From contig PNKZ01000003.1 in assembly GCA_013822735.1 (NCBI GenBank), forward strand, positions 186,001 through 250,000: a stretch of 64,000 nt of DNA, written 5' to 3'. Position numbers and translations under genes: made by a program. Shown here piece after piece: positions 38,888 to 56,668 of the stretch. Under the pieces are notes generated by a model, which did no database searches, had not been told where the DNA came from, and was given only the letters and a program-made list of their open reading frames with translations. Positions within the stretch are counted from its first letter, which is position 1. The number at the start of each line of letters is the position of its first letter. This DNA is from Pirellula sp. GTDB lineage: Bacteria > Planctomycetota > Planctomycetia > Pirellulales > PNKZ01.

Positions 38888-40918
38888 CTAAACGGCGACC
38901 AGGCCGAGAATCGGCGCGGAAACGTTCTTTAAGGCGTCGATCGTTCGGAGCGCGACCGGATGCGGGCGGCCTCCCTGTTCGGCGACGAAGATCATCGAAG
39001 TCGCGCGGGCGGCGAGCATCTCCAAATCGACGGCATGCTCGACGCCGGGGCCGAGCAGGAGAATGGTCGAGTAGCGATGGCGCAACTCGCTCAGCAGTTC
39101 GCTCAAGCGGCGCGACGCAAAGGCTTCCGCCGGGAGCGACGACTCTCCGGCGAGCAGCATGTCGAATTGCGACGCGGGACGAACCACGTCGCTTGCCACG
39201 AGGTCGCCGTTGCGCAACAGGCCCGCCAGCCCGTCGTGCGCTCCGCGCGGAGCGTGCTTCGACGTAATGCTTTGCGTGGGGTCGAATTTGCGATGCGCGC
39301 CGGTCCAATCGTCGAGCACCGCTTGCTCGGGGTCGACCTGCGGCTTCGCGGTGAGTTCCGCGGCCAGAGCGGCATGGGCCCGGGCGTCGCGCTCGGTTTC
39401 GATGACCAACACCGCCTCGCCGCGCATCGCCAAACATTTCGCCGTGTCCACAACGAGCGGGACCGCGGATACGCGGTCGTCGACGGTTGTGAACAGCGCC
39501 ACCGAACCATCGGCATGCGCGCTTTGTTGAATGCGTAGCGCGAGCATGCGCACGAGTTCGTCGTGGTCGTCGGCGCGGCTCCCTTCCGGGGCTTCGATTT
39601 GCGGCAATTGCGCGTACAGGGCGTCGCTCGACGTTCCGTCTTCACCGCGCCGCGATAGGAGATCGAAGAGGAAGACCGGAATTAGGCAGCCGAGGAACAC
39701 GACGGCGCCCGTCCCGACCAGCAGCTTTTTCTTGTTCGAAGTCACGGCATCGAACGCCGGAGCGGCCCGTTGCATGACGACGAGATCGTGATACTCGGAC
39801 GCGACCAGTTCTTGGAACGAGGCGACTTGGGCCGCCGTGCGCTGAACTTCGGCCTGCGCGGCGACGAGCGCATAGTGCAATTCGTCCCCCTGCGGACGAA
39901 GTGCGTTCAAGCGATCCACTTCCGCCCGACGCTGCGTGAGAAAAGCTTGAATGCGGGCCGTGGCCGCGGCGTCGCCTTCGTCGGCCGCCGCATTCGCTTC
40001 GCCGGCCGGGCGATTCAGATGGGCCGAGAGCGCTTCGCCGAGTTGTTTCATCCGTTGCCGGCGATGTTCGAACGCTTCCGTGTTCTGTGCTTGCAACGTC
40101 TTAAATTCGGTTTCGATGCGATTGAATTCCGCGTCGCTGATATATCGCTTGGCGTGCAGTCGTTCCGCGCGCTCGAGTTCGTTCTTCTTGAGCAGCAAGG
40201 CGGATTCTCGTTCTAGTTGGGCGCGCTCCGCTTCTTGCTGCTCCTGAAGGATGGTGCGGCGCCGTTGCAATTGCTCTTCGGGCGACGCGCGGGCCGAGCG
40301 TTGCGTTTCCAGAGCGGTCTCCACGGCGGCGATGTCGTCGCGCACCCGTTCGAGATCGTCGTCGACGCTCAGCACGATTTGATGCGCCGCGTTGAATTTG
40401 CGGAGGTTCTCGGCGGCGGCCTCCACGGCTGCGGCGGCTTTCGCGGCATGCGTCTCTTGCGCGGCGAGGATATTCGCGGCAGTTTGCTTGCGTAGGTCTC
40501 CGGCCTGTTCGATCAGGCTTTGCATGATCGCGTCGAGCGTGAGACGCGTTCCTTCGGCTTCCGGCCCGCGCATCATGAATTGCAACGTGTTGGAGCCCAT
40601 CACGGCTTCGGTTTGCAAGCCGCCGACGAGCGATCCGGCCGGCGGATGATGGGGCAGCTTCCGGGAAGCGGCCTCTAAGACCGGCTGCGACTTCGCGAGG
40701 CCGACGATCGATGGCAGCTCCGGTTGCTGATATTGCGGGCTGCCGACCCCGGAGCGGTTGTAGAGCATCGTGCCGGTGCAGGTGAACGTCTGCACCGCGA
40801 ACTTCTCCGCCACGAAGAACGCCGCCACGGCGGCCAACCCCGCCGAGGCGATGAGCGACGGCCAGCGACGCCGCAAGAATGTCAGGACTTGATTCGAGCT
40901 TTCGGGTGTGGAGCGCAT
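38888..40918 (-). CDS. Wzz/Wzc-like chain-length protein with degenerate BY-kinase domain
   Basis: A 676-residue polysaccharide co-polymerase. The first transmembrane helix is near residues 17-38 and the second near 410-430 (LLVGTGAVVFLGCLIPVFLF), with a long coiled-coil periplasmic region between them. The C-terminal cytoplasmic domain aligns with bacterial tyrosine kinases (Wzc, CapB) but lacks their working parts. Where a GEGKST P-loop is expected it reads DDRVSAVPLVVD, and the Walker A' strand ends in VIETE instead of an acidic DxD. There is no tyrosine cluster at the C-terminus. It therefore probably sets chain length without kinase activity. AAAAGG lies 5 bases before the ATG at 40918. 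It is the first gene of the exopolysaccharide operon. Confidence 0.85.
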   Translation of the reverse strand: MRSTPESSNQVLTFLRRRWPSLIASAGLAAVAAFFVAEKFAVQTFTCTGTMLYNRSGVGSPQYQQPELPSIVGLAKSQPVLEAASRKLPHHPPAGSLVGGLQTEAVMGSNTLQFMMRGPEAEGTRLTLDAIMQSLIEQAGDLRKQTAANILAAQETHAAKAAAAVEAAAENLRKFNAAHQIVLSVDDDLERVRDDIAAVETALETQRSARASPEEQLQRRRTILQEQQEAERAQLERESALLLKKNELERAERLHAKRYISDAEFNRIETEFKTLQAQNTEAFEHRRQRMKQLGEALSAHLNRPAGEANAAADEGDAAATARIQAFLTQRRAEVDRLNALRPQGDELHYALVAAQAEVQRTAAQVASFQELVASEYHDLVVMQRAAPAFDAVTSNKKKLLVGTGAVVFLGCLIPVFLFDLLSRRGEDGTSSDALYAQLPQIEAPEGSRADDHDELVRMLALRIQQSAHADGSVALFTTVDDRVSAVPLVVDTAKCLAMRGEAVLVIETERDARAHAALAAELTAKPQVDPEQAVLDDWTGAHRKFDPTQSITSKHAPRGAHDGLAGLLRNGDLVASDVVRPASQFDMLLAGESSLPAEAFASRRLSELLSELRHRYSTILLLGPGVEHAVDLEMLAARATSMIFVAEQGGRPHPVALRTIDALKNVSAPILGLVAV

Positions 40919-41382
40919 GGCAACCTTTTCAGCGAGCAATCGAGCCCGCTTATCCTTCGAACGTGGTTACAGACCTTCAGCGGCTACGCACGTCGACGAG
41001 CGAACGAATCGCTACCTCCGCCGACCGCGCCCGTTCGCGTCGCACCGCATGGTGCGCGATCGGAGCGTCTGCGGATTTCAGCAATGTGCGTAGTGGGGAA
41101 CCACTTCTACTCTAGGTTAATTGCGCAGAGTCGGCGGACCGCGTCGGTTTGGCTGCCGGCCTCGGGCCGGCGGCGACTATTTATTGATGTGAAGTCCGTA
41201 CGTTCGGACGATCCGGAACAACCCGACTGCGGCCGCAGCGCGGTGCGATGCCGGCGTTGCTCGTTGTGAATGCATGTATCGTTACAATCGCCATAGATTG
41301 CCTAAACGCTGCAAGCCGGAGGGTCGATAAACGAGGCGGACAACTATCCATTCCGGTCTCCTGCTGCGCGCAGAACTTTTTG
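40919..41382. other. Divergent promoter region of the exopolysaccharide operon and TolC-type gene
   Basis: This gap of about 460 bases separates the two divergent genes. It must contain both promoters. I find no gene, no long repeat and no convincing -35/-10 pair. The frame of the TolC-type gene is open back to 41248 but without a plausible signal. Confidence 0.5.
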
Positions 41383-43644
41383 ATGATCGCGGTACCTACA
41401 ACTCGACGAACGCGGCACGTTGCTTGGGCAACGTACGTCGGTCTCACGGTGTTGTCGGTGCTGGCCGTCTATATGCTGTGGATTGCGGAAGAGAAGCCGT
41501 CGAAACAGGAAGCGGCGAAGCGATGGGAGAAGGGCGCACCGATCGGAGAGGCGTTTCGGCCGCCGGATCTCGGCGTCTCGGCAGCCGAGCCGAACGCGGC
41601 ACCGAGCGAAGCCGCGCCTGCGATGAACTTGGCCATGGTTTCGAAGCCCGTGCCCAAGTTCCTGCGATTCCCGTCCACCGATGTTGCGACGATGGCCAAC
41701 GGAGTGATGGCCGTTCAAGCCGAGCAAACGGAAGCGGAACCGGCATTTACATTGCCCGCATTTCCGCAAACTCCGGAAGCGGAAAGTGTCGATCCGCGGG
41801 CAGAATCGCCGGCCGTTGCCGCGCCGGAAGTTGTGACGCCGCCGGCGGAACCGGCGTTCGTCGCCGCAGCCCCTTCAGCAACCTCACCGCAATCGGCAGC
41901 GCCACAACCCTCGGCCATCGAGCCGGCCGCTTCGCCGGCAACGGTCGCCGCGCCCCGAAGTGCGCCGCTCATGATGCCGCCGGCCGCGGCGCCGCCGCCG
42001 TCGTATGCTCCGGCGCACAGTTTCGTTGCCGAAGCGCCGCCGCCTGCGTCACCGTCCGTCGCGCCGCCGTCGATGGTGATGGCCCCTCCGGCCGCGATCG
42101 TTCCGGAAGTGGTGCCGAGCGTGCCGCTTGGCGAAGGAGCGCCGAGTGCGCTGCCGACGCAGATTCCCGATCCGTGGACCGATCTGCTTCCCTCCGCTTC
42201 GCTACCGCCGCCGGAAGCGGCGACGATTTCGATCGACGACGCTCGCTACATGGCCTTGCGTAACAACAAGGACATCGCCGTTCTGGGGTTCATGCCGCAA
42301 GTCGCAAGCGCCGCGATCGGCGTCGAAGAAGCGGTGTTCGACCCGGTGTTCGGCGTCAACACGCAAGGGGGACACTACTTCCGCCAAACGTCGACGTTGA
42401 TCAACGCGCTCGGCACCGGCATCCCGACGCTCAACACCACGTTCTGGAACTCCCCGGCCGGGCTCAATCAGATCTATCTCGAAAAGCTGTTCGTCACCGG
42501 CGGCAAGGCGCAGATCGGCGTGGGGCAAACCATGACGAGTTACTCGCCGACCGGAGATTTCGTGACCGTGAACCCCGCCTGGCAATCGACGCTCAACCTC
42601 ATTCTCGAGCAGCCGCTGTTTCGCGGACGAGGCGCCATCGCCACGGAAGCGCCCCTGCGCATCGCGCGGGCCAATCAGAATCAATCGTGGAACTCGTTTC
42701 AGGCGCTCGTGAATCAAATTCTGCGCGATGCCGAAGCTGCGTACTGGGAAACCAGCGAGGCCTACCGAGAGTTTCAACTGCGCGACCTTTCGCTGGCCCA
42801 GGCCTTGCGCACGCTCGACCGCGAGCAAGAGCGGATGCGCATCGGCGAAGGGGCGATTCCCGACGTCGCACAGGCCCAAGAGCATGTGGAAGAAGTGCGC
42901 ATCGAACGGGCCGACACCGAAAAACGCTACATCATCGCGCAGCGCGAACTACGGCGTATTATGGGGGTGCCGCCCGACGATCCCCGGCCGATCGTTCCCG
43001 CCACCATGGCCGGCGATGCGCCGCTCGTCGTCGATTGGGGAGCCGGCGTCCAGCAAGCGATGGGTCGACCGGAACTGAACGCACAGCGGGCCGTCGTCGA
43101 AGCGGCCGACGTCGAATACCGCCGCCGCATCAACGGCCTGCAGCCCGACCTCGCCGTGCGGGCGATCTACTCCGTCTCCGGCCTCGATAGCCAATACGAC
43201 GGCTCATGGAGCTCGCTCGGCAGCTGGGACTACAACGATTGGACCGCCGGCGTCATTTACAAACGGCCGTTCGGGCGGCGCGCCGATCAGTCGTTTGCGC
43301 AGAGGGCCCAATCGGTGCTGAGCATGGAAACGGCCCGACTTCGGCAATTGGAGCACGAAGTAACGTATCAATTGGCCGGAGCGTTAGACGATCTGCAGGC
43401 GGCCGAACGGCTGCTGGTGCTGCATCGTCGTCGTCGCGACGCGGCAGCCGTGCAGCTCGAGGCGCGGCGTGAGCTGTACTTCGAAGGGCGTGCGTCGCTG
43501 CGCGACCAAGTCGACGCCGAGGACCGCTACACGGACGCGATGATCGAAGAGGCCGCGGCGCGCGTCGACTACCAGCGTGCCATTACCCGCTGGAATTTCG
43601 CCCGCGGGGCGATCAACGATTCCACGCTCGCGGTCGCCGAGTAG
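41383..43644 (+). CDS. TolC-type outer membrane efflux protein with membrane anchor and Ala/Pro linker
   Basis: A 753-residue protein. Residues about 13-36 (VAWATYVGLTVLSVLAVYMLW) form a hydrophobic helix without a clear signal-peptidase site, so it looks like an uncleaved anchor. Roughly 240 residues of Ala/Pro/Glu-rich low-complexity sequence follow. The outer-membrane efflux domain begins near SIDDARYMALRNNKDIAVLGF and shows the two-fold helical repeat of TolC (GEGAIPDVAQAQEHVEEVRI and the later LYFEGRASLRDQVDAEDRYTDA). It would form a trimeric outer-membrane channel. It is divergent from the exopolysaccharide operon and may replace a Wza-type exit pore, or could export the NRPS-PKS product encoded nearby. 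The start at 41383 was chosen because the helix follows it. Confidence 0.85.
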   Translation: MIAVPTTRRTRHVAWATYVGLTVLSVLAVYMLWIAEEKPSKQEAAKRWEKGAPIGEAFRPPDLGVSAAEPNAAPSEAAPAMNLAMVSKPVPKFLRFPSTDVATMANGVMAVQAEQTEAEPAFTLPAFPQTPEAESVDPRAESPAVAAPEVVTPPAEPAFVAAAPSATSPQSAAPQPSAIEPAASPATVAAPRSAPLMMPPAAAPPPSYAPAHSFVAEAPPPASPSVAPPSMVMAPPAAIVPEVVPSVPLGEGAPSALPTQIPDPWTDLLPSASLPPPEAATISIDDARYMALRNNKDIAVLGFMPQVASAAIGVEEAVFDPVFGVNTQGGHYFRQTSTLINALGTGIPTLNTTFWNSPAGLNQIYLEKLFVTGGKAQIGVGQTMTSYSPTGDFVTVNPAWQSTLNLILEQPLFRGRGAIATEAPLRIARANQNQSWNSFQALVNQILRDAEAAYWETSEAYREFQLRDLSLAQALRTLDREQERMRIGEGAIPDVAQAQEHVEEVRIERADTEKRYIIAQRELRRIMGVPPDDPRPIVPATMAGDAPLVVDWGAGVQQAMGRPELNAQRAVVEAADVEYRRRINGLQPDLAVRAIYSVSGLDSQYDGSWSSLGSWDYNDWTAGVIYKRPFGRRADQSFAQRAQSVLSMETARLRQLEHEVTYQLAGALDDLQAAERLLVLHRRRRDAAAVQLEARRELYFEGRASLRDQVDAEDRYTDAMIEEAAARVDYQRAITRWNFARGAINDSTLAVAE

Positions 43645-43666: not shown

Positions 43667-44866
43667 TTACGAAACTAGGGCAGGGGTCAGCCCTGCGCAT
43701 TCGCGGAGGTGATCGATCCGTCGGGCGAACGTTCCTTCGAACGTATGCTGCCGGGCAAAGTCCCAAGCCTTCAGAGAGAGCTTGGCGAGCAATTCGCGAT
43801 CTTCGTGCAACCGCGCGACGGCCGAGGCCATCAGGCGGAAGTCGTCCATGGTCACCTTGCGACCGCAGCCGGCGAGTTCCAATAGGCCCGCCCAGGCTTC
43901 ATTGGCGTAGCCGACGATCGGCACGCCGCAGGCCAAGGTTTCGAGATACGTGCAGGACGGGTCTCCCTGTCGATGCGGGCAGATGAAGAGATCGGTTTCT
44001 TCCTGCAAGAGCGGCATCAGCTGCGTCTTGAAATCGAGGTTGCCGTGAAACAGCACTTCTCCGCATAAGTCATACTGCGCGAGTGCGGCCCGCATGCCGT
44101 CTTCCAGGTCGCCCGCTCCGCAGATGCCGAGCGTAAAGGGCACGCCGAGCCGGCGCAATTCCGCGGCAAACGGCGGGAGATGGTCGGCCCCCTTCATCGC
44201 GATGAGGCGTCCGGAGAAGACCAGCCGCAGCGGTTCCCCTTGCAACAAGCGCGCGAGTCGCGTCTCCATCTGATCTTCACAGGGCATCATGTCGCCGGTC
44301 GTGCGCGTATCAAAGTAAAGCAGCGCCCGCGGATTCAGGTCGCGGTAGGCCTGATAGGTCGGGAGGCCGTTGCATTGTACGCCGGCGGCCGCGCGCACGC
44401 TCTTCACGTTCGCGCGCTCCTGGCTCCGTTCCCACCAAGCCCGGCGCCAACGCCGGAGCGGGTTCCATTCTTCCGCGGCGATAATTTGTTCGCGCGTCGC
44501 CAGCGTGTATTCCGTCGTGCACACAAACGGCGTGCCGGCGCGTCGACAAGCCGCGGCCAGATGATTCTGGCGATGCTCGGCTCCCCCGAGCACCACGGCC
44601 GACTCACGGAGCTCCTCCGTCAGGCGACGATCGCGAAACGACATCAGCTCCAAGCCGAACGGCAACGACGCGGGCACCACGCATTTATTGTCGAGGTTGT
44701 TCGACGCCGCTCGGGCCGGTTCCAAGATCGCCTTCACCGGCCCGTCCCAGCACTCGACGTATTGCGTCATGCCGTCGACGAACTTTTGCGTGACGACGAT
44801 GCGCCCGTCGTTCTTGCGAACGCCTTGTAGCGAAGGAAGCACCAGCAACTGTTCTTTCATCGGCAT
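43667..44866 (-). CDS. Glycosyltransferase (GT4-like)
   Basis: A 399-residue GT-B type glycosyltransferase. The N-terminal half is poorly conserved (VVTQKFVDGMTQYVECWDGPV). The C-terminal half contains LRLVFSGRLIAMKGADHL, GICGAGDLEDGM and the donor-binding CPHRQGDPSCTYLETLACGVPIVGY, where the usual EX7E acidic pair is partly altered. AGGTGAG lies 8 bases before the ATG at 44866; a GTG one codon earlier is an alternative. It faces the TolC-type gene tail to tail and the NRPS head to head. It could belong to the exopolysaccharide locus or glycosylate the NRPS-PKS product; the sequence does not decide. Confidence 0.83.
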   Translation of the reverse strand: MPMKEQLLVLPSLQGVRKNDGRIVVTQKFVDGMTQYVECWDGPVKAILEPARAASNNLDNKCVVPASLPFGLELMSFRDRRLTEELRESAVVLGGAEHRQNHLAAACRRAGTPFVCTTEYTLATREQIIAAEEWNPLRRWRRAWWERSQERANVKSVRAAAGVQCNGLPTYQAYRDLNPRALLYFDTRTTGDMMPCEDQMETRLARLLQGEPLRLVFSGRLIAMKGADHLPPFAAELRRLGVPFTLGICGAGDLEDGMRAALAQYDLCGEVLFHGNLDFKTQLMPLLQEETDLFICPHRQGDPSCTYLETLACGVPIVGYANEAWAGLLELAGCGRKVTMDDFRLMASAVARLHEDRELLAKLSLKAWDFARQHTFEGTFARRIDHLRECAGLTPALVS

Positions 44867-44916
44867 CACAACTCACCTGGGAACGTCGAACCGGCACGAC
44901 CGTCACGATCGGAACC

Positions 44917-45184: not shown

Positions 45185-48100
45185 ATGACGTCAGAAATTC
45201 GGCGCTTCCGTTGTTTTCTCATCGGCTCCGAGTCGTTGCTCGCCGAGTGCGCGGAAACTCTGTTGAAGCAAGGTCACGAAATCCTCGGCGTCATCACGTC
45301 GGCGCGCAAGCTCAGCGCCTGGGCGCATGGCCGTAACCTGCGCGTGCTCGATCCGCGCGGCGATTATCGCGCCGTGCTCGCCGAGCAGCCGTTTGAATAT
45401 CTCTTCAGTATCACGCACCTGGCCATCATCCCGGCCGACGTCCTCGCGCTGCCGACTAAGGGCGCCATCAACTTTCACGACGGCCCCCTGCCCCGCTACG
45501 CCGGGCTCAATACGCCGGTCTGGGCGCTGCTCAACCGCGAAACCGAATACGCGATCACTTGGCATTGGATGACCGCGGGCATCGACGACGGCGACGTGCT
45601 CATTCGCAAGCCGGTCGAAATCGCGGCCGACGACACGGCCCTCTCGCTCAACACGAAATGTTTCCAGGCCGGCATCGAGTCGTTCGCCGAACTCGCCGGC
45701 TGGCTTGGCCTCGGCACCCCCGTCGCACGGCCGCAAAATCTTGAAGGCCGGCAATATTTCGGCAAGCACGATCGGCCCGAGGCGGCAGGCCTGCTCGATT
45801 GGTCGCGCTCGGCCGACGAACTGCAAACGCTCGTCCGGGCCCTCGACCACGGCCGCTACCGCAATCCGGTCGCCACGGCCAAGGTCCGCCTCGCCGGCAA
45901 GCTCTACGTCGTCGATGCCGCCGCGGTCGTCGATGCCGACGATGCCGATAACGGCGCGGCGCGCGAGTCGGGCACCGTCGTCGACTGCAACGACAACGAA
46001 ATCCGCGTCGTCGCCGGCAGCGGCACGCTCGCGCTGCGCAGCTTCTCCACCACCTGCGGCCGTACGCTGACGCCGGCCGATCTCATGGCGCGACATGCCC
46101 TCTCCGTCGGCAGTCGCTTCGATCAAGCTTCGCCGGAAGAACGCAAAAGCATCACCGAGCTGCAGGCGAAGGTCGCGCGGCACGAAGACTTTTGGGTCCG
46201 TCGCCTGCAAGAGCTCGACGCCGCGCAGGTTCCCTATGCGGGTGAAAGCTCCGGAGCCGTCGCCGCCGACACTCCGCAATGGGCCTCCGCGCGGCAGCCT
46301 TTGCCGGCCGGCTTCCTCAAGAACATCGGCGGGCAAGAGGTCGCTCAAGCGCTCATCACCGCGCTCGGCGGCTATTTGGCCCGCGTCGGCGAGAAGCAAA
46401 CATTCGACGTCGCATTCTTTGAATCGCCGAAGAATCGCCGCGCGTCCGACGTGCGCGGCTGGACGGCGTCGCATCTGCCGCTCCGTTTGACGATCGACGC
46501 GGCCCGTTCGCTCGCCGACAATTGCGCGGCCCACGCCGCGCAGTTTGCGGAAATCGCAAAGCGCGGCACCTATCTGAACGACGTGTTGCGCCGGTATCCC
46601 GAGTTGCACAATCGGCCGGAGCTTGCCGCGGGTCGGGCACTGCCGATCGCCGTCGCCTTATGCGACGACCTGGAGTCGTACACGCCGGAGCCGGGCATCG
46701 CGCTGGCACTGGTGATCGCGCCGCAAGAGTCGGCGATTCGTTGGGTCTACGATTCGGCCGTCGTGCCGGAGTCGGCCTTTGCCACGATTCGCCGGCAGTT
46801 CGACCAATTCCTCATGAGCGCGGCCGCCGACGCGAGCGCACCGTTGGCAAACGTCGAACTCCTGTCGACCGGCGAGCGCAAGCTCCTGCTCCAAGATTGG
46901 AATGCCACGGCCGTCGACTATCCGCGCCAAGCAACCATCCACGAACTTTTCGAAGCGCAAGCCGCGCGCACGCCCGACGCCGTCGCCGTGTCGTTCGAGA
47001 ATCGCCGACTCACCTACGCCCAACTCAATCGCCGCGCCAATCGGCTGGCCGCACATCTCCGCACGCTCGGCGTCGGGCCCGATGCGATGGTCGGCATCCA
47101 TCTGGAACGGTCGGAGAACTTGGTCACCGCGATGATGGCCGTGCTCAAGGCCGGCGGCGCGTACCTGCCGCTCGATCCGAACTATCCGGCCGAGCGCATT
47201 GCGTTCATGATCGACGACGCGCAAGCGCCGGTGATCATCACCGAGAACGAAACGCTCAGTCGGCTGCCGCCGCATCGCGCGGCCGTGGTGAACCTCGACG
47301 CCGACGCGCCGGCGATCGCCCGCCACGCGGCCGATCATCTTCCGACGCGTTCGCAAGCCGAGAATCTGGCCTACGTCATCTACACCTCCGGCTCTACCGG
47401 CAAGCCGAAAGGGGTGATGATCGAGCATCGCAACGCCGTGAACTTCTTCGTCGGCATGGACGCATGTCTTGATCACCAGGGCCTCGACCACCAGACCCTC
47501 GACCATAACAAGCCCGGCGTGTGGCCGGCGGTTACGAGCCTCTCGTTCGACATTCACGTACTCGAGCTGCTGTGGACCCTGACGCGCGGCTTCGAAGTGG
47601 TCGTGCATCGCGATCGCGAACGGGCCGCCGCCGTCGCCGAGCAGTTGGCGGCGAGCAACCGGCACGCCGGCGTGCCGATGGATTTCAGCCTGTTCTACTT
47701 CTCGGCCGACTCGGAAGAGGAGTCGTCGAACAAATACCGCCTGCTGCTCGAAGGCTCCAAGTGGGGCGACGAGCACGGCTTCTGCGCCGTCTGGACTCCG
47801 GAACGTCACTTCCATTCGTTCGGCGGGCTTTATCCGAACCCGGCGATTACGGGCGCGGCCGTCGCGGCGATTACCAAGAACGTACAGATCCGCGCCGGCA
47901 GCGTCGTGTTGCCGCTGCATCATCCGCTTCGCGTCGCCGAAGGGTGGCAAGTCGTCGACAACCTCTCCAACGGTCGCGTCGGGCTTTCGGTCGCCGCCGG
48001 GTGGCAGCCGAACGACTTCGTGCTCATGCCGCAAAACTTCGCCGATCCTAAAGCGGCCATGTTCCGCGACCTGGAAATCGTCAAGCGGCTCTGGCGCGGC

Positions 48101-50005
48101 GAAGCGATCGAGTTTCCCGGCGCCACGGGCAAGCCGATCGCCGTGCGCACGTTGCCGCGTCCGATTCAGCCGGAGTTGCCGGTTTGGATCACAACCGCCG
48201 GCAACCTCGATACGTACATTCAAGCCGGCAAGATCGGCGCGAACATCCTTACGCACTTGCTCGGCCAATCCGTGGAAGAACTCGCGCCGAAGATCGCCGC
48301 CTATCGCCAAGCGCGGGCCGACGCCGGCTTCGATCCAGCCGCGGGCATCGTCTCGCTGATGCTGCATACGTTCGTCGGCCCTGACGAAGCGGCGGTGCGC
48401 GAAGCGGTGCGCGGCCCGCTCAAGGCATACCTCGGCACGTCGCTCGCCCTGCTCAAGCAATATGCTTGGGCCTTCCCGGCTTTCAAGCGTCCGCAAGGGG
48501 TCGCGGTGGGACAAGGAGACGATTTCGCCGGCCTGACGCCGGAAGAGAACGACGCGCTATTAGATTTTGCCTTCGAGCGCTATTACGAAACGTCCGGCCT
48601 CTTCGGCGACGTGCCGCAATGCCTGGCGATGGTCGACAAGCTGAAGGCGATCGGCGTACAGGAAATCGCCTGCCTCATCGATTTCGGCCTCTCGACCGAT
48701 ACGGTGCTCGAACACTTGCCGCACTTGAACACGGTGCGCGAACAGGCAAACCGCGGCGTCGCGACGACCGTGGTCGCCGCCGAATCGACGGACAATGCTT
48801 TCACCTCGGACGTAACGATCGTCGAAGACGCCGGCGACTATTCACTCGCGGCGTTGCTCGAGCGCAATCAGGCGACCCACTTCCAATGCACGCCGTCGTT
48901 GGCGCGAATGCTCTTGATGAGCGACGAGGGACGTCGGGCCGTGCGCGGCTTAAAGAACTTCCTCATCGGCGGCGAAGCGCTGCCGGTCGATCTGGCTCGC
49001 GACTTGAAGGGCCTGATCTCGGGCCGGCTGATCAACATGTACGGCCCGACGGAAACCACGGTTTGGTCGTCGACGCAAGTCGTCGAAGACGCATCCGGCC
49101 CGATTCCGATCGGTCGGCCGATTGCGAACACGCAGCTCTATATTCTCGACGCGGCCCGCAAGCCGGTGCCCGTCGGCGTGCCGGGCGAACTCTATATCGG
49201 CGGCGACGGCGTCACGCGCGGCTATTTGAATCGGCCGGAACTTTCGGCCGAACGCTTCGTGCATGATCCGTTCGCACCGCAGGCCGGCGCGCGGATGTAT
49301 CGCACGGGCGACTTGGTGCGTTACCGTGCCGACGGCGTCGTCGAGTTCCTGGGCCGGACCGATCATCAGGTGAAGATTCGCGGCCATCGCATCGAGCTCG
49401 GCGAGATCGAAACGCGCTTAGTCGACCATCCGCACGTGCGGCAATGCGTCGTGGTGCCGCGCGAGGCGGGACCCGGCGATGTCCGTTTGGCGGCGTATTA
49501 CGTGGCCGACGGCGCGGCGCCGGCCGATGCCGACTTGCGCGAACATGTGCGTGAGAAGTTGCCGGAATACATGGTGCCGCAGCATTTCGTGGTGCTGGAA
49601 GAACTGCCGCTCACGCCGAACGGCAAGATCGACCGGAAGGCGCTGCCGTCGATCGACTTCGGACCGTCGCACGCCGCCGCGACGTATGTAGCGCCCGACA
49701 ACGAAATCGAACAGAAGATCGCGACCCTCTGGCAAGAACTGCTTGGCCGCTCGCAGGTGGGGATCGACGACAACTTCTTCGACCTCGGCGGCCACTCGCT
49801 GCTCGTGGTCCGCATGCATCGACAACTGACGCAACTGGTCACGCAGCCGGTCGCGCTGACCGATCTCTTCCGCTTCCCGACCGTTCGTTCGCTCGCCGCG
49901 CACTTGTCGGGCGGCACGGCCGACACGGAATCGGCCCAGGACGGAACCGATCGCGCCGCCAAACGGCGCGAATTGCAACAACGCCGCCGCGTCACACGCC
50001 GTTAA
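45185..50005 (+). CDS. NRPS: formyltransferase, half condensation, adenylation with embedded LLM monooxygenase, carrier
   Basis: A 1606-residue assembly-line enzyme with GAGG 6 bases before the ATG. Residues 1-310 are a 10-formyl-THF formyltransferase with its C-terminal domain. Catalytic Asn96, His98 and Asp134 keep the same spacing as Asn106, His108 and Asp144 of E. coli Fmt. Residues about 320-545 resemble only the C-terminal lobe of a condensation domain; no HHxxxDG is present. The adenylation domain starts near 565 (YTSGSTGKPKG, SFDIHVLEL). A luciferase-like flavin monooxygenase of the MupA/Atu3671 type interrupts it at about 831-1190 (FSLFYFSADSEEE, GSVVLPLHHPLRVAEGW). The adenylation fold then resumes with NMYGPTETTVW, YRTGDLVRY and NGKIDRKAL. 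The carrier Ser is 1538 (FFDLGGHSLL). Pocket residues read D-I-L-C-L-G-M-V-W, close to known glycine codes. It looks like a starter module giving a formylated, possibly oxidised aminoacyl unit. Confidence 0.9.
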   Translation: MTSEIRRFRCFLIGSESLLAECAETLLKQGHEILGVITSARKLSAWAHGRNLRVLDPRGDYRAVLAEQPFEYLFSITHLAIIPADVLALPTKGAINFHDGPLPRYAGLNTPVWALLNRETEYAITWHWMTAGIDDGDVLIRKPVEIAADDTALSLNTKCFQAGIESFAELAGWLGLGTPVARPQNLEGRQYFGKHDRPEAAGLLDWSRSADELQTLVRALDHGRYRNPVATAKVRLAGKLYVVDAAAVVDADDADNGAARESGTVVDCNDNEIRVVAGSGTLALRSFSTTCGRTLTPADLMARHALSVGSRFDQASPEERKSITELQAKVARHEDFWVRRLQELDAAQVPYAGESSGAVAADTPQWASARQPLPAGFLKNIGGQEVAQALITALGGYLARVGEKQTFDVAFFESPKNRRASDVRGWTASHLPLRLTIDAARSLADNCAAHAAQFAEIAKRGTYLNDVLRRYPELHNRPELAAGRALPIAVALCDDLESYTPEPGIALALVIAPQESAIRWVYDSAVVPESAFATIRRQFDQFLMSAAADASAPLANVELLSTGERKLLLQDWNATAVDYPRQATIHELFEAQAARTPDAVAVSFENRRLTYAQLNRRANRLAAHLRTLGVGPDAMVGIHLERSENLVTAMMAVLKAGGAYLPLDPNYPAERIAFMIDDAQAPVIITENETLSRLPPHRAAVVNLDADAPAIARHAADHLPTRSQAENLAYVIYTSGSTGKPKGVMIEHRNAVNFFVGMDACLDHQGLDHQTLDHNKPGVWPAVTSLSFDIHVLELLWTLTRGFEVVVHRDRERAAAVAEQLAASNRHAGVPMDFSLFYFSADSEEESSNKYRLLLEGSKWGDEHGFCAVWTPERHFHSFGGLYPNPAITGAAVAAITKNVQIRAGSVVLPLHHPLRVAEGWQVVDNLSNGRVGLSVAAGWQPNDFVLMPQNFADPKAAMFRDLEIVKRLWRGEAIEFPGATGKPIAVRTLPRPIQPELPVWITTAGNLDTYIQAGKIGANILTHLLGQSVEELAPKIAAYRQARADAGFDPAAGIVSLMLHTFVGPDEAAVREAVRGPLKAYLGTSLALLKQYAWAFPAFKRPQGVAVGQGDDFAGLTPEENDALLDFAFERYYETSGLFGDVPQCLAMVDKLKAIGVQEIACLIDFGLSTDTVLEHLPHLNTVREQANRGVATTVVAAESTDNAFTSDVTIVEDAGDYSLAALLERNQATHFQCTPSLARMLLMSDEGRRAVRGLKNFLIGGEALPVDLARDLKGLISGRLINMYGPTETTVWSSTQVVEDASGPIPIGRPIANTQLYILDAARKPVPVGVPGELYIGGDGVTRGYLNRPELSAERFVHDPFAPQAGARMYRTGDLVRYRADGVVEFLGRTDHQVKIRGHRIELGEIETRLVDHPHVRQCVVVPREAGPGDVRLAAYYVADGAAPADADLREHVREKLPEYMVPQHFVVLEELPLTPNGKIDRKALPSIDFGPSHAAATYVAPDNEIEQKIATLWQELLGRSQVGIDDNFFDLGGHSLLVVRMHRQLTQLVTQPVALTDLFRFPTVRSLAAHLSGGTADTESAQDGTDRAAKRRELQQRRRVTRR

Positions 50006-50074: not shown

Positions 50075-53000
50075 ATGACTTCGACCGAAACGACTCTGAA
50101 TCCGAACGACATCGCCATCGTGGGCCTCGCCTTGCGCGTGCCGGGCGCCGATTCGCCGCAGCGCTTCTGGCACAACCTGCGCGACGGCGTCGAATCGGTG
50201 CGCCCGCTCTCCGACGCCGACCTTGCAGCGGCCGGCGTCCCCGCCGAGCTGCTGGAGAATCCGAACTATGTGAAGTCGGCGGCCGTGCTCGACAATCTGC
50301 CGATGTTCGACGCCGAGTTCTTCGGGCTCAGCCCGAAAGAAGCGGCGATCATGGACCCTCAACATCGCCACTTCTTGGAATGCGCGTGGGAAGCGCTTGA
50401 GAGCGCCGGGCATCCGCCGGAGAAGTTCGACGGGCGGATCGGCGTGTTCGCCGGTTGCGGCATGGGCGCCTACTTTCAGCAGAACCTGCTTTCGAATCCG
50501 GAGCTCATCGATTCGGTCGGCATGTTCTTGCTGCGGCACACCGGCAACGACAAAGACTTTCTCGCGACGCGCGTCTCGTATTGCTTCGACCTGAAGGGTC
50601 CGAGCGTCAACGTGCAGACGGCTTGCTCGACGTCGCTCGTGGCCGTGCACACGGCTTGCCAAAGTTTGCTGAGCGGCGAGTGCGATATGGCGCTGGCCGG
50701 CGGGGTGACGATCGAGCTGCCGCACGGTCAGGGCTACCTCTTTAAGAAGAATGAGATTCTCTCGCCCGACGGGCATTGCCGAGCGTTTGATCAGAACGCA
50801 CGCGGAACGATTTTCGGCAGCGGGGCGGGCGTGGCCGTGTTGCGACGCGTGGAAGACGCGCTCCGCGACGGCGATCGGATTTACGCGGTCGTGAAAGGTT
50901 CGGCGGTGAACAACGACGGCGCGAGCAAGGTGGGCTACTTTGCACCGAGCGTCGACGGGCAGGCCTCGGCCGTGGCCGAAGCGCTGGCCGTGGCGGACGT
51001 GCCGGCCGATACGATCGGCTATGTCGAATGCCACGGCACGGGCACGCCCATCGGCGACCCGATTGAAATCGCCGCGCTGACGCAGGCCTTCCGGCAGTCG
51101 ACCGAACGCAGCGGCTTCTGCGCCATCGGCTCGGTGAAAACGAACATCGGCCACTTGGACACGGCCGCCGGCGTGGTGGGCATGGCCAAGGCCGCGCTCG
51201 CGCTGGAACACAAACAACTGCCGCCGAGCTTGAACTTCACGGCGCCGAATCCGGCGATCGATTTCGTGAACAGCCCCTTCACGGTGAACGCGAAGTTGCG
51301 CGCGTGGCAAGCCGGCGCTGCGCCGCGGCGCGCGGCGGTGAACTCGCTCGGCGTGGGCGGGACCAATGCGCACTTGGTGCTCGAAGAAGCCCCGCAGGTT
51401 GCCGCAAGCGACGAGGCTCGCCGGCCGCAGCAGTTGATCACGCTTTCGGCCCGCAATCGTGCGGCGCTGGATGATGCTTCGCGTCGGCTGGCCGCGCATT
51501 TACGCGAACACCCGGAACAAAACTTGGCCGACGTGGCGTACACGCTGTTTCACGGGCGCGCCAAGTTCGACGTGCGCCGCGTCTTGGCGGCGGGCGACTC
51601 CGCCGAAGCGGCAGCGCTGTTGGAAGCGGGGGATGCGTCGCGCGTATTTACGCATAAGGGGGGCGATGCGAAGCCGTCGGTAGTGTTTATGTTTCCCGGC
51701 GGCGGTGTGCAGTCGCCGCGAATGGGGCGCGACCTGTACGAATCCGAGCCGGTGTTTAAGCAGTGGATTGATCGCGGCTTGACGTGGCTTGCGGGCAAGC
51801 TCGATGTCGATCTCCGCGAAGTGTGGTTCGCCGGGCCGGAGCGCGATGCCGAATTGCAAAGCGTCTGGGAACGGCCGAGCGTGCAGCTGCCGGCGATTTA
51901 CCTGTGCGAGTATGCGCTGGCCAAGCTTTGGCAAGCGTGGGGCGTGCAACCGGCGGCGCTCCTGGGGCATAGCCTTGGTGAGAACACGGCCGCGGCGCTC
52001 GCCGAAGTGTTTTCGTTTGAAGACGGGCTCGGGCTGGTGACGCTGCGCGGCAAGCTCTTCGAGCGTGTGGCGCCCGGCGGCATGCTGAGCGTGCCGCTTG
52101 CTCCGGAGGCGATCATGCCGCTGTTGGGCGACCGGCTCGACTTGGCGACCGTCAACGGCCCGGAGTTTTGCACGGTCTCGGGGCCCGACGATGCGCTCGA
52201 CGAGCTCTTCGCGAAGCTCACGGCCGACGGCATCGACGCGAAACGGGTGCCCATTCGCATTGCGGCGCATTCGCGGTTGCTTGAGCCGATTCTCGCCGAC
52301 TTCGAAGCGTACTTGCGCAGCATCAAGCTGCAGAAGCCCAAGCTGCCGATCGTCTCGAACCGGACCGGCTCTTGGCTCACCGATGCGCAGGCCGTGGATC
52401 CGAAGTATTGGGTGGATCACTTGCGCAACACGGTGCGCTTCGCCGACGGCGTGGGCACGGTGCTGCAAACGCCGGGTCGCGTTTTTCTCGAAGTGGGGCC
52501 GGGCAAGGTCTTGGCCTCGCTCGTGCGTCAACATCGCGACCTCAACGCGGGCCAAGCGGTGCTTTCGTCGTTGCGTCACCCGAAGGAGAACGTCTCCGAT
52601 ACGGTGTTCTTCACGACGGTGCTCGGCCGGCTTTGGGCCTGCGACGTGGCGATCGACGATGCATTGCTGTGGAAGAACGAGCGCCGGCGGCGCGTCGAGC
52701 TGCCGACGTATGCATTTCAACACCAAGCGTACTGGATCGAGCCGGGCAAGGGAGCCGGGCGCGAACAACGGGGAGCCGGAGCGCTCGCGCGCATCGCCGA
52801 CCCGAACGATTGGTACTATCGCCCGATTTGGCGGCTGCGCGAATTGGAGTCGCCCGAGGCGGAGTTGGACCCGACGACGTGGTTGATCTTCTTGGATGAG
52901 GCAGGCCTCGGCCGGCGACTGACCGAGAAGCTGCGCGCGGCGGGGCACGAGGTCGTGACCGTGCGCACGGGGGACGCTTATGTTCAACATAGCCCGCACG

Positions 53001-56000
53001 AGTTCACGCTGTCGCCCGAACACGGCCGCGTGGGGTACGACGCGTTGATTCATGACTTGACGGCAATCGGCAAAGCGCCGAGCCGCATCGTGCACTTATG
53101 GCTCACGACGCTCGACGAAACGTTCCGACCGGGCTCGAGCTTTTTCCATCGCAACCAAGAGCAAGGGTTCTACAGCTTGCTCTTCTTGGCGCAGGCGCTC
53201 GACGCCGAGCGGCTCGCGCAGCCGCTGCATATCACCGTCGTGACGAGCGGCATGCAACAGACGCGCGACGAAGCGTTGCCGTATCCGGACAAGGCGACGG
53301 TGCTCGGGCCGGTCGGCGTGATTCCGCGCGAGCTTGCGGAGACGACCTGCGCGTGCATCGACGTGGCGTTGCCGTCGGCCCGGGGCTTCGGCGGCAAGCG
53401 TCGCCTGGCGACCGGCCTCGACATCTTGGCGGAACAGGTCTTCGTCGAACTGCAACAACCGACGGCCAACGGACAGATCGCCCTGCGCGAAGAGCGCCGC
53501 TATGAGCACGGCTACACCCGCCACAAGCCGAAACCGACCAAAAAGCCCGAAAAGTGCTCGCAGGCTGATGCATATCAGGTTACGGCCGTGCGCGAGCGGG
53601 GCGTGTATCTCATTACCGGCGGCTTCGGCGGCATCGGCCTCGCGACGGCCGAGCACCTGGCGCGAACGGCCAAGGCACGGCTGGTGCTGGTGGGCCGTTC
53701 GGCGTTGCCCCCTGCCGACCAATGGGACGCGTGGCTCCGCAGCCACGCCGACGATAACAGCGTCAGCCGACGAATCCGGAGCGTGCGCGAGCTCGAATCA
53801 TACGGCGCCGAGGTGCTTCCGGCCGAGGTCGACGTGACCGACGTGGAAGCCGTGCGCGGGGTGGTCGCCGAAGCAATCCGCCGGTTTGGGGCGCTGCACG
53901 GAGTCGTGCATGCGGCCGGCGTTCTGCAAGACGGCCTTATTGCTCAGAAGACGCAATCGGACGCGGAAGAAGTGTTCGCGCCGAAGGTGCACGGGGCGAT
54001 GGTGCTCGACGATGCGGTCCAGAGCGTACTCGGCGACCGCTCCCTCGACTTCTTCGTCGCGTACTCCTCGACCAGTACGGCCACGACGCCTGCCGGCCAA
54101 GTGGATTACGTGGCCGCCAACGCCTTCTTGAACGCCTTTGCGCAAAGCAGGAACAAGCAGAACGGTTGCCGCTACTTGGCTTTGAACTGGGGTATTTGGA
54201 ACGAAGTGGGCATGGCGGCGCACGCGGCGGATAAGTCGCGGCAGAAGGGTGAGTTGCCCAAGGAAGAAGCGGTCGAGCACCCATGGTTCGACTACCGGCT
54301 CGGCGGGTTGCACGATACGCGCGTCGCGCTGGTCGGGCGGCATGCGGCGGCCACGCATTGGGTTTACGACGAACATCGCACGTCGGCGGGCCAAGCGCTG
54401 CTGCCCGGCACCGGTTATTTGGAACTGGCCCGCGCGGCCCTGGCGGAACTGCATGAATCGACGAGTATGGAGATTCGGGATCTGTACTTCTTGAGCCCGC
54501 TGGCCGTGGAAGACGACGGCTCGCGCGACGTGACCGTATTACTCCAGCGCGACGAGCGCGGCTATGGGTTCGAAGTGTCGAGCCGTCCGGCGCGCGATAA
54601 GCACGCCGCGCCCCAAGTGCACGCCCAAGCGCACCTAGTGGCCGACGAGAATCGTCCGCCCGCGCGACTGGATCTCATCGCCATTTCCCGGCGGTGTCCG
54701 AATGTGAAGCATGCTTCGGCCGGGGCGACGCTCCATACGCGGCAGGAAGAGCATTTGCGATTCGGCCCACGGTGGCGCGTCGTACAAGAAACGGCCTACG
54801 GCAACGGCGAGGCGCTGGCTTGTCTACGCCTGCCCGACGCCTTCGCCGACGACTTGCAGCAGTATGGTCTACATCCGGCCTTGATGGACCTCGCAACCGG
54901 TTTCGCGATGGACCTGATCGAGGGATATGAGAAGTCGACCAACCTTTGGGTGCCCCTTTCTTACAAACGCGCGGCCAGTTTTGGGCCGTTGCCGGCGGCG
55001 ATTGTCAGTTGGGTTCGCAACCATGGTGTGAATCGAGCAGATGGGGGATTTGCGTCATTCGATATCACCATCGCCGATGAGTCGGGCCGGGTCTTAGTCG
55101 AGATCGAAGAGTTCGTGATTAAGCGGCTCAGCGATTCTGATACGTTCGGCACGGCCGCGCCGCGCGCCGCCGCGAGCGGATTGGATGTCGCCGACGAACA
55201 CGATTCGGAAACCATGTCGCCGGCCGAAGCTCAATTTCGGGCCAACCTGCGCAACGGCATTCGACCTTCGGAGGGGGTCGCCGCGTTGTCCGCCGTGCTC
55301 GCGGAAAAAGGACCCTCGCAAGTCATCGTGTCGTCGCTCGACCTCCCGGGTCTGATCGCGCAAGCACAAACGGTCGTCGCCCCAAGCACGGCCGAGCCGG
55401 GAGCGAAGTTCGCGCGTCCGCAGCTCGACGGCGAGTTCGTCGAACCGCGCGACAATATCGAACGTTCGCTGGTCGCCATCTGGGAAGAGCTGCTCGGTGT
55501 TACGTCCATCGGCGTGCGCGACAGCTTCTTTGATCTCGGCGGCCATTCGCTCATCGCCGTGCGACTGTTTGCCAACATCAAGCGGACGTTTCAGGTTGAA
55601 TTTCCCATTTCCGTATTGTTCGAAGCGCCGACGGTGGAAGGGTGCGCGAACTTGATTCGTCGACAGATCGGCGACGTGACGACGGAAGTTCCCTCCACGC
55701 ACGCGGGCGACAAGCACCCGACGCGCTATACGCATTTGGTGTCGATGCACGAAGGGGCCGGCAGTTCGAAGGCGCCGCTGTTTATCGTTGCCGGCATGTT
55801 CGGCAACGTGCTGAATCTGCGGCACCTGGCGCACCTCGTCGGTCACGAGCGGCCTTGCTATGGTCTGCAAGCGCGCGGGCTCTACGGCGACCACGACCCA
55901 CACCTGACGTTTGAAGAAGCGGCGGCTGACTACATTCGCGAACTGCGGACCGTGCAGCCGCACGGACCTTATCTTTTGGCCGGTTTCTCCGGAGGCGGGC

Positions 56001-56668
56001 TCCACGCCTACGAGATGGCGCACCAACTCCTTCGCGACGGTGAACAAGTCGCGTTCCTCGGCATGCTCGATACGCCGCTGCCGAGGAGCGAGTTGCTCAC
56101 TAGGCTCGACAAGGTGAAGATGCATCTGCAGCGCATCGGCCGTGAGCGGCACCGCTACTTTTGGAACTTCATTTCCGGCCGTTTGGAATGGGAATGGCGT
56201 CAATTGCAACGCCGTTTCGGCGGCGCGGAAGTTCCTGCGCCACAGACGCAATTCCACTCGGAGACGATCGAAGCCGCGTTCCGCGCGGCATGCGACGTGT
56301 ATCAACCCCCCGAGTTCGACGGCAAGCTGTATCTGTTCCGACCGAAGCTGAGCCCCACGCATATCTTCGGTCCGGATCGCATGATCAACCTCGATCGCCG
56401 CTTCATCTACCACGACAACGGCTGGTCGCGCCACGTGCGCGAAGTCGCCGTCGTCGAAGTGCCCGGCGATCACGACAGCATGGTGTTGGAGCCGAACGTC
56501 CGCGTGCTGGGGACTCGCCTTCGGAAGGCGATCGACCAAGCGGAAGCGTTGTATTCGTCGCAAACCGCGACCTCGCGCAAGAAGCGGCCGATTGACGTGA
56601 GCTTGGTTCGCGCGGCGACCGAACGCGCCGAGGCGCTGCATGACGAAGCCGTGGAGATGCGCTCATGA
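50075..56668 (+). CDS. Type I PKS: KS-AT-KR-DH-ACP-TE
   Basis: A 2197-residue polyketide synthase module. The ketosynthase triad is Cys184 (TACSTS), His320 (HGTGT) and His360 (NIGH). The acyltransferase has Ser633 in GHSLGE and IAAHS at the specificity site. A structural half precedes the ketoreductase, whose NADPH loop LITGGFGGIG starts at residue 1179 and whose Ser/Tyr are in AYSSTST and VDYVAANAF. The hotdog dehydratase follows, with His1434 (DEHRTSAGQALLPG) and Asp1605 (HPALMDLAT). The carrier Ser is 1825 (FFDLGGHSLI) and the thioesterase nucleophile Ser1972 (GFSGGG). There is no enoylreductase, so a double bond could be left. The KR-before-DH order is unlike the usual DH-KR. The gene starts 69 bases after the NRPS stop and its stop overlaps the next start (ATGA). 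Confidence 0.93.
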   Translation: MTSTETTLNPNDIAIVGLALRVPGADSPQRFWHNLRDGVESVRPLSDADLAAAGVPAELLENPNYVKSAAVLDNLPMFDAEFFGLSPKEAAIMDPQHRHFLECAWEALESAGHPPEKFDGRIGVFAGCGMGAYFQQNLLSNPELIDSVGMFLLRHTGNDKDFLATRVSYCFDLKGPSVNVQTACSTSLVAVHTACQSLLSGECDMALAGGVTIELPHGQGYLFKKNEILSPDGHCRAFDQNARGTIFGSGAGVAVLRRVEDALRDGDRIYAVVKGSAVNNDGASKVGYFAPSVDGQASAVAEALAVADVPADTIGYVECHGTGTPIGDPIEIAALTQAFRQSTERSGFCAIGSVKTNIGHLDTAAGVVGMAKAALALEHKQLPPSLNFTAPNPAIDFVNSPFTVNAKLRAWQAGAAPRRAAVNSLGVGGTNAHLVLEEAPQVAASDEARRPQQLITLSARNRAALDDASRRLAAHLREHPEQNLADVAYTLFHGRAKFDVRRVLAAGDSAEAAALLEAGDASRVFTHKGGDAKPSVVFMFPGGGVQSPRMGRDLYESEPVFKQWIDRGLTWLAGKLDVDLREVWFAGPERDAELQSVWERPSVQLPAIYLCEYALAKLWQAWGVQPAALLGHSLGENTAAALAEVFSFEDGLGLVTLRGKLFERVAPGGMLSVPLAPEAIMPLLGDRLDLATVNGPEFCTVSGPDDALDELFAKLTADGIDAKRVPIRIAAHSRLLEPILADFEAYLRSIKLQKPKLPIVSNRTGSWLTDAQAVDPKYWVDHLRNTVRFADGVGTVLQTPGRVFLEVGPGKVLASLVRQHRDLNAGQAVLSSLRHPKENVSDTVFFTTVLGRLWACDVAIDDALLWKNERRRRVELPTYAFQHQAYWIEPGKGAGREQRGAGALARIADPNDWYYRPIWRLRELESPEAELDPTTWLIFLDEAGLGRRLTEKLRAAGHEVVTVRTGDAYVQHSPHEFTLSPEHGRVGYDALIHDLTAIGKAPSRIVHLWLTTLDETFRPGSSFFHRNQEQGFYSLLFLAQALDAERLAQPLHITVVTSGMQQTRDEALPYPDKATVLGPVGVIPRELAETTCACIDVALPSARGFGGKRRLATGLDILAEQVFVELQQPTANGQIALREERRYEHGYTRHKPKPTKKPEKCSQADAYQVTAVRERGVYLITGGFGGIGLATAEHLARTAKARLVLVGRSALPPADQWDAWLRSHADDNSVSRRIRSVRELESYGAEVLPAEVDVTDVEAVRGVVAEAIRRFGALHGVVHAAGVLQDGLIAQKTQSDAEEVFAPKVHGAMVLDDAVQSVLGDRSLDFFVAYSSTSTATTPAGQVDYVAANAFLNAFAQSRNKQNGCRYLALNWGIWNEVGMAAHAADKSRQKGELPKEEAVEHPWFDYRLGGLHDTRVALVGRHAAATHWVYDEHRTSAGQALLPGTGYLELARAALAELHESTSMEIRDLYFLSPLAVEDDGSRDVTVLLQRDERGYGFEVSSRPARDKHAAPQVHAQAHLVADENRPPARLDLIAISRRCPNVKHASAGATLHTRQEEHLRFGPRWRVVQETAYGNGEALACLRLPDAFADDLQQYGLHPALMDLATGFAMDLIEGYEKSTNLWVPLSYKRAASFGPLPAAIVSWVRNHGVNRADGGFASFDITIADESGRVLVEIEEFVIKRLSDSDTFGTAAPRAAASGLDVADEHDSETMSPAEAQFRANLRNGIRPSEGVAALSAVLAEKGPSQVIVSSLDLPGLIAQAQTVVAPSTAEPGAKFARPQLDGEFVEPRDNIERSLVAIWEELLGVTSIGVRDSFFDLGGHSLIAVRLFANIKRTFQVEFPISVLFEAPTVEGCANLIRRQIGDVTTEVPSTHAGDKHPTRYTHLVSMHEGAGSSKAPLFIVAGMFGNVLNLRHLAHLVGHERPCYGLQARGLYGDHDPHLTFEEAAADYIRELRTVQPHGPYLLAGFSGGGLHAYEMAHQLLRDGEQVAFLGMLDTPLPRSELLTRLDKVKMHLQRIGRERHRYFWNFISGRLEWEWRQLQRRFGGAEVPAPQTQFHSETIEAAFRAACDVYQPPEFDGKLYLFRPKLSPTHIFGPDRMINLDRRFIYHDNGWSRHVREVAVVEVPGDHDSMVLEPNVRVLGTRLRKAIDQAEALYSSQTATSRKKRPIDVSLVRAATERAEALHDEAVEMRS

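Follow-up and report, generated by a model that had tools for sequence, protein, structure and literature searches.

The window analysed here is a 64,000-nucleotide stretch of the Pirellula sp. assembly GCA_013822735.1 (contig PNKZ01000003.1, positions 186,001 to 250,000), and the gene in question is a nonribosomal peptide synthetase (NRPS) gene at 45185-50005 on the forward strand. This open reading frame (ORF) begins with ATG, encodes 1606 amino acids and is a real gene; its product contains the single TIGR04020 match in the assembly (6.88 Mb in 38 contigs). The protein runs from a formyltransferase (F) domain through the C-terminal lobe of a condensation (C) domain and an adenylation (A) domain to a peptidyl carrier protein (PCP) domain, with a flavin monooxygenase lodged within the A domain. 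Pfam recognizes Formyl_trans_N at residues 72-163, Formyl_trans_C at 201-304, AMP-binding in two stretches (best 589-817), Bac_luciferase at 832-1158, AMP-binding_C at 1407-1481 and PP-binding at 1510-1574. The parts of the synthetase are as follows.

45185..46096, + strand: F domain, N part plus a C-terminal subdomain of the methionyl-tRNA formyltransferase/ArnA type (residues 1-304; PF00551, PF02911; structure model; catalytic triad)
46184..46912, + strand: remnant of a C domain, C-lobe (residues ~334-576; profile match to McyB and Txo2)
46949..47635, + strand: first part of the A domain, through A4 (residues 589-817; PF00501; pocket residues D789, I790, L793)
47684..48739, + strand: inserted luciferase-like monooxygenase of the MupA/Atu3671 type, flavin mononucleotide (FMN)-dependent (residues 834-1185; TIGR04020; 6ket match)
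48842..49627, + strand: second part of the A domain, A5 onward (residues 1220-1481; TIGR01733 stretch 1220-1423; AMP-binding_C 1407-1481)
49712..49906, + strand: PCP domain with the motif GGHS (residues 1510-1574; PF00550)

To place the synthetase among its relatives, we sampled the best 80 of 584 with about 10 kb of flank a side, and a further set of planctomycete genomes with flanks of up to about 18 kb a side. Rows carrying both a formyltransferase and an inserted monooxygenase are called F-plus here (n = 54, including the window), and 14 rows are F-minus. The catalytic residues of the formyltransferase, N96, H98 and D134, do not vary among the 23 rows selected for an alignment of the F and C-lobe region, and the triad is kept in 51 of the 54 F-plus rows; the exceptions read N-Q-G (L012 and L014) and N-H-A (L104). 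A structure model of the F domain and C-lobe has a mean predicted local distance difference test score (pLDDT) of 90.1 and a predicted template modelling score (pTM) of 0.86. Its F part best matches the methionyl-tRNA formyltransferase 3tqq (TMt 0.88), ArnA also scoring high, and in a profile comparison to solved structures the F domain lies nearer to ArnA than to LgrA (E 8e-37 versus 1.1e-24).

Between the formyltransferase and the A domain, no Pfam match was found at 1e-3. The 23-row profile nevertheless aligns there (profile positions 318-558, which map to the window protein from about residue 334), and only to the C-terminal part of solved C domains: residues 201-479 of McyB (E 5.7e-19) and 197-473 of Txo2 (E 2.4e-18). 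A motif scan found no HHxxxDG-like match anywhere in the synthetase. Because the profile matches only the C-terminal lobe of C domains, the lobe that carries HHxxxDG is missing rather than mutated; we therefore rejected the idea of a full but degenerate C domain, and the synthetase lacks the complete, HHxxxDG-bearing C domain of an elongating module. HHxxxDG-like matches occur in 10 of the 14 F-minus rows, in 8 of these before a recognized A3 motif, and in a single F-plus row out of 54 (L036, at residue 23 of its reading frame).

The monooxygenase scores 499.8 bits against TIGR04020 over residues 834-1185, covering profile positions 1-341 of 341 (cut-off 244.45), and the A stretch picks up again at residue 1220 (TIGR01733). 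Aligned with A domains that have no insert, the synthetase has an extra stretch of about residues 817-1222, which follows A4 (SLSFDIHVLELLW, 785-797) and precedes A5 (NMYGPTE, 1284-1290). Solved A domains align across the insert in Foldseek (about 820-930 columns including gaps), with a high root mean square deviation. The insert itself matches the OX domain 6ket, labelled PuwE in the profile search, at 50% identity and TMt 0.91 (Foldseek), and its N-terminal and core motifs are conserved among the aligned members. Structure prediction, fold alignment and sequence alignment all led us to reject a monooxygenase lying outside the A fold. The pocket code of the A domain is DILQLGMVWK, close to DILQLGLIWK, which we take to be the reference glycine code; all 54 F-plus codes start with DILQ and differ at later positions only.

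An original prediction, made for this gene from its letters, had described an NRPS starter with a formyltransferase whose three catalytic residues are present, a condensation remnant without HHxxxDG, a luciferase-like domain splitting the A fold between A4 and A5, and a glycine-like pocket. This make-up is borne out by Pfam, NCBIfam, profile and structure comparisons, and the structure prediction it had proposed as a check places the monooxygenase within the A fold, with the caveat of a pTM of 0.56. The evidence supports a starter module of glycine type in which the formyltransferase triad is intact and a flavin monooxygenase is embedded. The further suggestion, of a formylated and possibly oxidized glycyl starter, thus gains a fitting architecture, and the activities themselves stay predicted. 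What had been called an uncommon building block is less so in its ingredients: the pairing of formyltransferase and monooxygenase recurs in 54 rows, and both the F plus C-lobe arrangement and the A4-A5 insertion are known separately. Each part has a precedent; the unusual point is their combination.

The published precedents are cited here from excerpts of each paper. Glycine modules with a monooxygenase at A4-A5 are found in the myxothiazol and melithiazol synthetases, presumably in MtaG and MelG. In these, a flavin-dependent monooxygenase (FMO) inserted at a4-a5 is described as hydroxylating the glycyl residue, after which the carbinolamide is cleaved; the insertion position and glycyl substrate are those of the window synthetase, and, compared by description, the module extends a chain whose product is cleaved to an amide (PMC10204066). 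The window synthetase, by contrast, has neither a condensation N-lobe nor a thioesterase (TE) and has a formyltransferase in front. The SolF module of solanimycin likewise combines a predicted glycine A domain with an FMO that accounts for its product, alpha-hydroxyglycine, with an insertion at a8-a9 as against A4-A5 in the window (PMC10204066). MupA and PuwE share the TIGR04020-type domain. MupA is described as a free-standing, FMN-dependent alpha-hydroxylase of a carrier-bound beta-keto thioester that acts on a polyketide synthase (PKS) intermediate, whereas the window monooxygenase is embedded in an A domain (PMC10952193).

For the formyltransferase the nearest comparison is linear gramicidin synthetase LgrA, where F likewise heads the loading module with an N-terminal N-H-D triad and which is the highest-scoring solved match to our A-domain profile (A3), a rank aided by its two A domains. 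The LgrA initiation module is F-A-PCP, with F joined directly to A and, to our knowledge, no monooxygenase insert. The window F domain differs in having a complete C-terminal subdomain of the methionyl-tRNA formyltransferase/ArnA type, followed by a C-lobe of about 240 residues that separates it from A. In linear gramicidin synthetase, F works on an amino acid already bound to the PCP, and the F domain of conglobatin is related to that of oxazolomycin; in conglobatin, CongA joins a formyltransferase to a predicted glycine A domain that feeds a PKS, much as in the window, and the excerpts of PMC4504003 mention no monooxygenase. Fabrubactin FbnE, a flavin-dependent monooxygenase proposed to make alpha-hydroxycarboxylates, was considered with its companion enzymes as the closest system and rejected, by description only (PMC12971057, in excerpt).

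Full-length relatives are found in planctomycetes and on alphaproteobacterial plasmids, and the named genomes with relatives belong to Pseudomonadota, Planctomycetota, Acidobacteriota, Chloroflexota, Myxococcota and Rhodothermota. The F-minus relatives share the same A(monooxygenase) unit. Conversely, F plus C-lobe without a detected monooxygenase is seen in L170, L171, L107 and L112; the Mycetohabitans (L170) and Rhizobium (L171) starters match the window protein at 187 and 171 bits in F and at 78 and 54 bits in the C-lobe, and unlike it have no monooxygenase in the stretches read. A search with F plus C-lobe matched 359 plasmid records, of which the 60 listed were mostly rhizobial, the absence of a monooxygenase having been checked in the rhizobial L171 only. 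Since each unit occurs without the other, the window protein appears to be two pre-existing units fused together, F/C-lobe and A(monooxygenase). Its C-lobe matched formyltransferase-bearing synthetases without the monooxygenase and no F-minus module, a weak comparison given how fast the C-lobe diverges and that no match was obtained for many F-plus rows either. A tree of the A(monooxygenase) regions does not cleanly separate F-plus from F-minus and requires four label changes; F-plus may still have a single origin. Among the F-minus rows, L015 and L085 lie at contig ends, L015 probably belonging to an F-plus gene that is broken between contigs of genome G133, and L105 aligns poorly.

The genes around the synthetase offer a context that is absent from the earlier description. 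About 70 nt downstream begins a partner PKS with ketosynthase (KS), acyltransferase (AT), ketoreductase (KR), dehydratase (DH), acyl carrier protein (ACP) and TE domains, and upstream lie glycosyltransferase, flippase and TolC-like genes.

33641..35302, - strand: polysaccharide flippase, Polysacc_synt_3 (Pfam), with homologues beside other F-plus loci
35299..36585, - strand: glycosyltransferase of family GT4, EpsE-like below that model's cut-off (Pfam, NCBIfam)
36576..37595, - strand: glycosyltransferase of family GT2 (Pfam)
37620..39437, - strand: glycosyltransferase of family GT2, EpsU-like below that model's cut-off (Pfam, NCBIfam)
41248..43644, + strand: TolC-like outer membrane protein, OEP (Pfam)
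43667..44869, - strand: group 1 glycosyltransferase, divergent from the synthetase gene (Pfam)
50075..56668, + strand: partner PKS, KS-AT-KR-DH-ACP-TE, 2197 amino acids (Pfam)

The PKS partner recurs with the synthetase. A homologue scoring above 1200 bits is present at 33 of the 36 F-plus loci that span 18 kb or more and at none of 43 controls, which comprise 23 other loci of at least 18 kb and 20 planctomycete NRPS stretches (7.5-19.9 kb). At 1000 bits the counts become 35/36 and 8/43, so the lower threshold admits other PKSs too. Rhodobacterales contribute 25 of the 36 long F-plus loci, which are therefore not independent of one another. Across 42 aligned partner rows there is no variation at the KS Cys, the AT Ser and His, the KR Tyr and Asn, the DH His and Asp, the ACP Ser or the TE His, and the TE Ser is conserved in 41. 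Five of 47 rows were dropped from this alignment as being of another build (L111, L121, L092 and the F-plus L104 and L116), and L048 and L087 represent one gene. The dehydratase-like fold sits after KR, and the AT motif IAAHS is compatible with a malonyl or methylmalonyl unit.

The polysaccharide neighbourhood also recurs. On plasmids of Ruegeria, Shinella, Aminobacter and Paracoccus, annotated loci hold the NRPS-PKS pair amid polysaccharide genes; the Methylobacterium record carries no annotation. In a strict count whose references were the window's own flippase and glycosyltransferases only, at least one similar ORF was found at 22 of the 36 long F-plus loci and at none of the 43 controls (Fisher p 1.9e-10, uncorrected for kinship). 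A wider count, with references from Shinella, Aminobacter, Ruegeria, Paracoccus and the window, gave at least two polysaccharide ORFs at 25/40 F-plus loci, 0/9 F-minus loci, 0/31 other loci and 0/20 planctomycete controls, and at least one at 29/40, 2/9, 0/31 and 1/20, respectively. At 25/40 F-plus loci, all from Rhodobacterales, PKS and synthetase have a GT2 gene of the same strand between them (16/39 under a stricter distance rule). Shimia marina (L081) and Thalassovita litoralis (L074) are two Rhodobacterales with the genes. By lineage, the context is seen at 19 of 25 Rhodobacterales loci and at 3 of 11 others (L060 of Agrobacterium, L080 of Myxococcota and L090 of Sphingobium). It is also seen in 4 of 9 F-plus planctomycete genomes (G259, G335, G276 and G317), the other five (G064, G054, G125, G387 and G170) having no window-like polysaccharide genes in the flanks read; G387 appears to be the genome of L087 (Pla163), itself counted among the 11 loci outside Rhodobacterales. 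Among ten neighbours from two planctomycete loci and one Myxococcota locus, eight belong to Pfam glycosyltransferase, sugar transferase or flippase families, and ten neighbours of the synthetases of G064, G054, G125 and G387 showed no common theme in Pfam. The polysaccharide link is thus strongest in Rhodobacterales and patchy elsewhere, and this uneven split lowers our confidence in the interpretation that follows.

Near the synthetase we also observed a recurrent protein of 508 amino acids (L033:41196-42722, with homologues in 12 other genomes). It has no match in Pfam or NCBIfam and no convincing relative among solved structures; by eye, its start resembles an export signal and the protein a polysaccharide-degrading enzyme.

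Our leading interpretation, to which we give a little short of an even chance, is a two-protein NRPS-PKS line that begins with the synthetase as starter module and yields a small acyl unit for an extracellular or surface polysaccharide. The fuller version, in which a two-module line in several phyla installs an acyl group derived from formyl-(hydroxy)glycine on such a polysaccharide, is more tentative still. The order of steps is proposed from published precedents for homologous enzymes. Judging from its code, the A domain would activate glycine and load it onto the PCP. The F domain, with its intact triad and the linear gramicidin precedent, would then formylate the glycyl amine using formyl-tetrahydrofolate; only through formylation would the glycyl unit be an N-acyl glycine when it meets the oxidation step. 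There the embedded monooxygenase, by analogy with myxothiazol/melithiazol and MupA, would hydroxylate the glycyl alpha carbon. As its domains predict, the PKS would add one malonyl or methylmalonyl unit, reduce, dehydrate and release the product, a formamido acid of roughly four carbons. This unit may finally be put on, or passed to, the polysaccharide handled by the neighbouring glycosyltransferases and flippase, a step suggested by gene neighbourhood only.

Several observations weigh against this proposal. Within the roughly 10 kb read a side, 14 of the 36 long F-plus loci have no window-like polysaccharide ORF, 8 of them among the 11 loci outside Rhodobacterales. With flanks of up to about 18 kb a side, the F-plus synthetases of G064, G054 and G125 have neither PKS nor polysaccharide genes beside them, and G387 and G170 carry the PKS without polysaccharide genes. 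Conversely, the F-minus planctomycetes G240 and G359 combine a PKS homologue (1794 and 1854 bits) with polysaccharide genes, so the neighbourhood also exists where the F domain is absent, and the F-minus L085 (13.8 kb) holds one window-like polysaccharide ORF. The PKS matches at L104 and L116 are distant (1121 and 1059 bits) and L080 has none, and we identified no acyltransferase shared by the loci. On the side of the enzyme, the A(monooxygenase) model has a mean pLDDT of 82.7 and a pTM of 0.56, a modest inter-domain confidence that leaves it uncertain how insert and A fold sit relative to each other, and N-formylglycyl-PCP is not a beta-keto thioester, whereas MupA is described as needing a beta-keto substrate. 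Finally, L012 and L014 (genomes G276 and G317) have lost the catalytic His and Asp of F and sit on a long branch, yet retain PKS and polysaccharide neighbours, so formylation may be dispensable there; the two are natural test cases for its importance.

One rival concerns whether the product reaches a sugar at all. The NRPS-PKS pair could make an independent secondary metabolite and neighbour polysaccharide genes because islands and plasmids gather surface or biofilm functions, a reading we consider unlikely, while giving it real weight. The partner PKS has a TE of its own, which fits a free metabolite, and F-plus synthetases with a PKS have no window-like polysaccharide ORFs in their flanks in Pla163 (L087), Rhodopirellula maiorica (L069), Acanthopleuribacter (L059), Chloroflexi (L063), Salinivenus (L058) and Comamonadaceae (L089 and L094). 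An independent metabolite does not readily explain an association that is seen in several phyla and at 0/43 controls, or the GT2 gene standing between PKS and synthetase at 25/40 loci.

The remaining rivals concern what the monooxygenase does. The hydroxylated N-formylglycyl-PCP might collapse, as in myxothiazol, to formamide and glyoxylyl-PCP, so that the starter would be a two-carbon aldehyde-acyl unit and the formyl group sacrificial. The window shares the A4-A5 insertion and the glycine-type code with systems in which carbinolamide cleavage yields a glyoxyl thioester; solanimycin B, on the other hand, is described as retaining hydroxyglycine uncleaved (PMC10204066), and a sacrificial formyl would be costly on a starter unit, so we rate this outcome as improbable, at about one chance in a handful. 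Somewhat less probable again is a late action, with the beta-keto intermediate of the PKS partner as substrate instead of glycyl-PCP. Such timing would agree with the description of MupA, which hydroxylated a beta-keto ACP-bound chain only (PMC10952193), and it sits poorly both with a monooxygenase embedded in an A domain beside its own PCP and with F-minus relatives whose copy of the enzyme sits in a glycine-type module, in most cases one with a condensation motif. Least probable of all, in our estimation, is a catalytically silent insert, with a plain N-formylglycine-derived unit as product. Conglobatin, with its formyltransferase starter, predicted glycine A domain and proposed formylglycine (PMC4504003), provides the model for this; the 499.8 bits to TIGR04020, 50% identity to 6ket and conserved N-terminal and core motifs argue against it.

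Should the proposal of an acyl unit destined for a polysaccharide be right, a widespread family annotated merely as NRPS or monooxygenase would supply the polysaccharide of biofilms or surfaces with an unusual acyl substituent, and assembly-line biosynthesis would be coupled directly to glycan decoration. The formyl group would be explained as the smallest acyl cap that turns the starter glycine into the N-acyl glycine oxidized by this type of monooxygenase. In open-licence full text, among the part of the matching titles that was covered, we found no description of the synthetase with its recurrent PKS and polysaccharide context.

Downstream of the PKS lies one further assembly-line gene.

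60234..64000, + strand: second NRPS, C, A, thiolation (T) and TE domains (C-A-T-TE), pocket DAEDMGAICK, leaving the window and ending at about 64352 (Pfam; adjoining contig)

Judging by its position only, this second NRPS may act in the same pathway. A C-A-T-TE protein of the same build occurs in the Paracoccus polysaccharide locus (L035:1-3735) with the pocket code DVENVGAITK, and both codes resemble those for basic amino acids. Between the PKS and the second NRPS, at 56665-60210, the window holds a complete methylmalonyl-CoA mutase set made up of a B12-binding small subunit, MeaB, a large subunit and an epimerase-like glyoxalase. In the loci searched, the small subunit and MeaB had no match outside the window; we thus rejected the set as a conserved part of the pathway, and it may supply the PKS in this genome only.

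Two other genes in the window are of note for their architecture. At 25824-29492 on the reverse strand, a GntR/FCD regulator and a planctomycete PSCyt1-PSCyt2-PSD1 protein share a single open frame, which is an unusual fusion or else contains two genes. The PSCyt/PSD1 genes of the window fit a planctomycete genome. At 10737-22154 on the forward strand, a protein of 3805 amino acids combines an N-terminal Ser/Thr kinase domain with seven LamG-like stretches and a C-type lectin domain.

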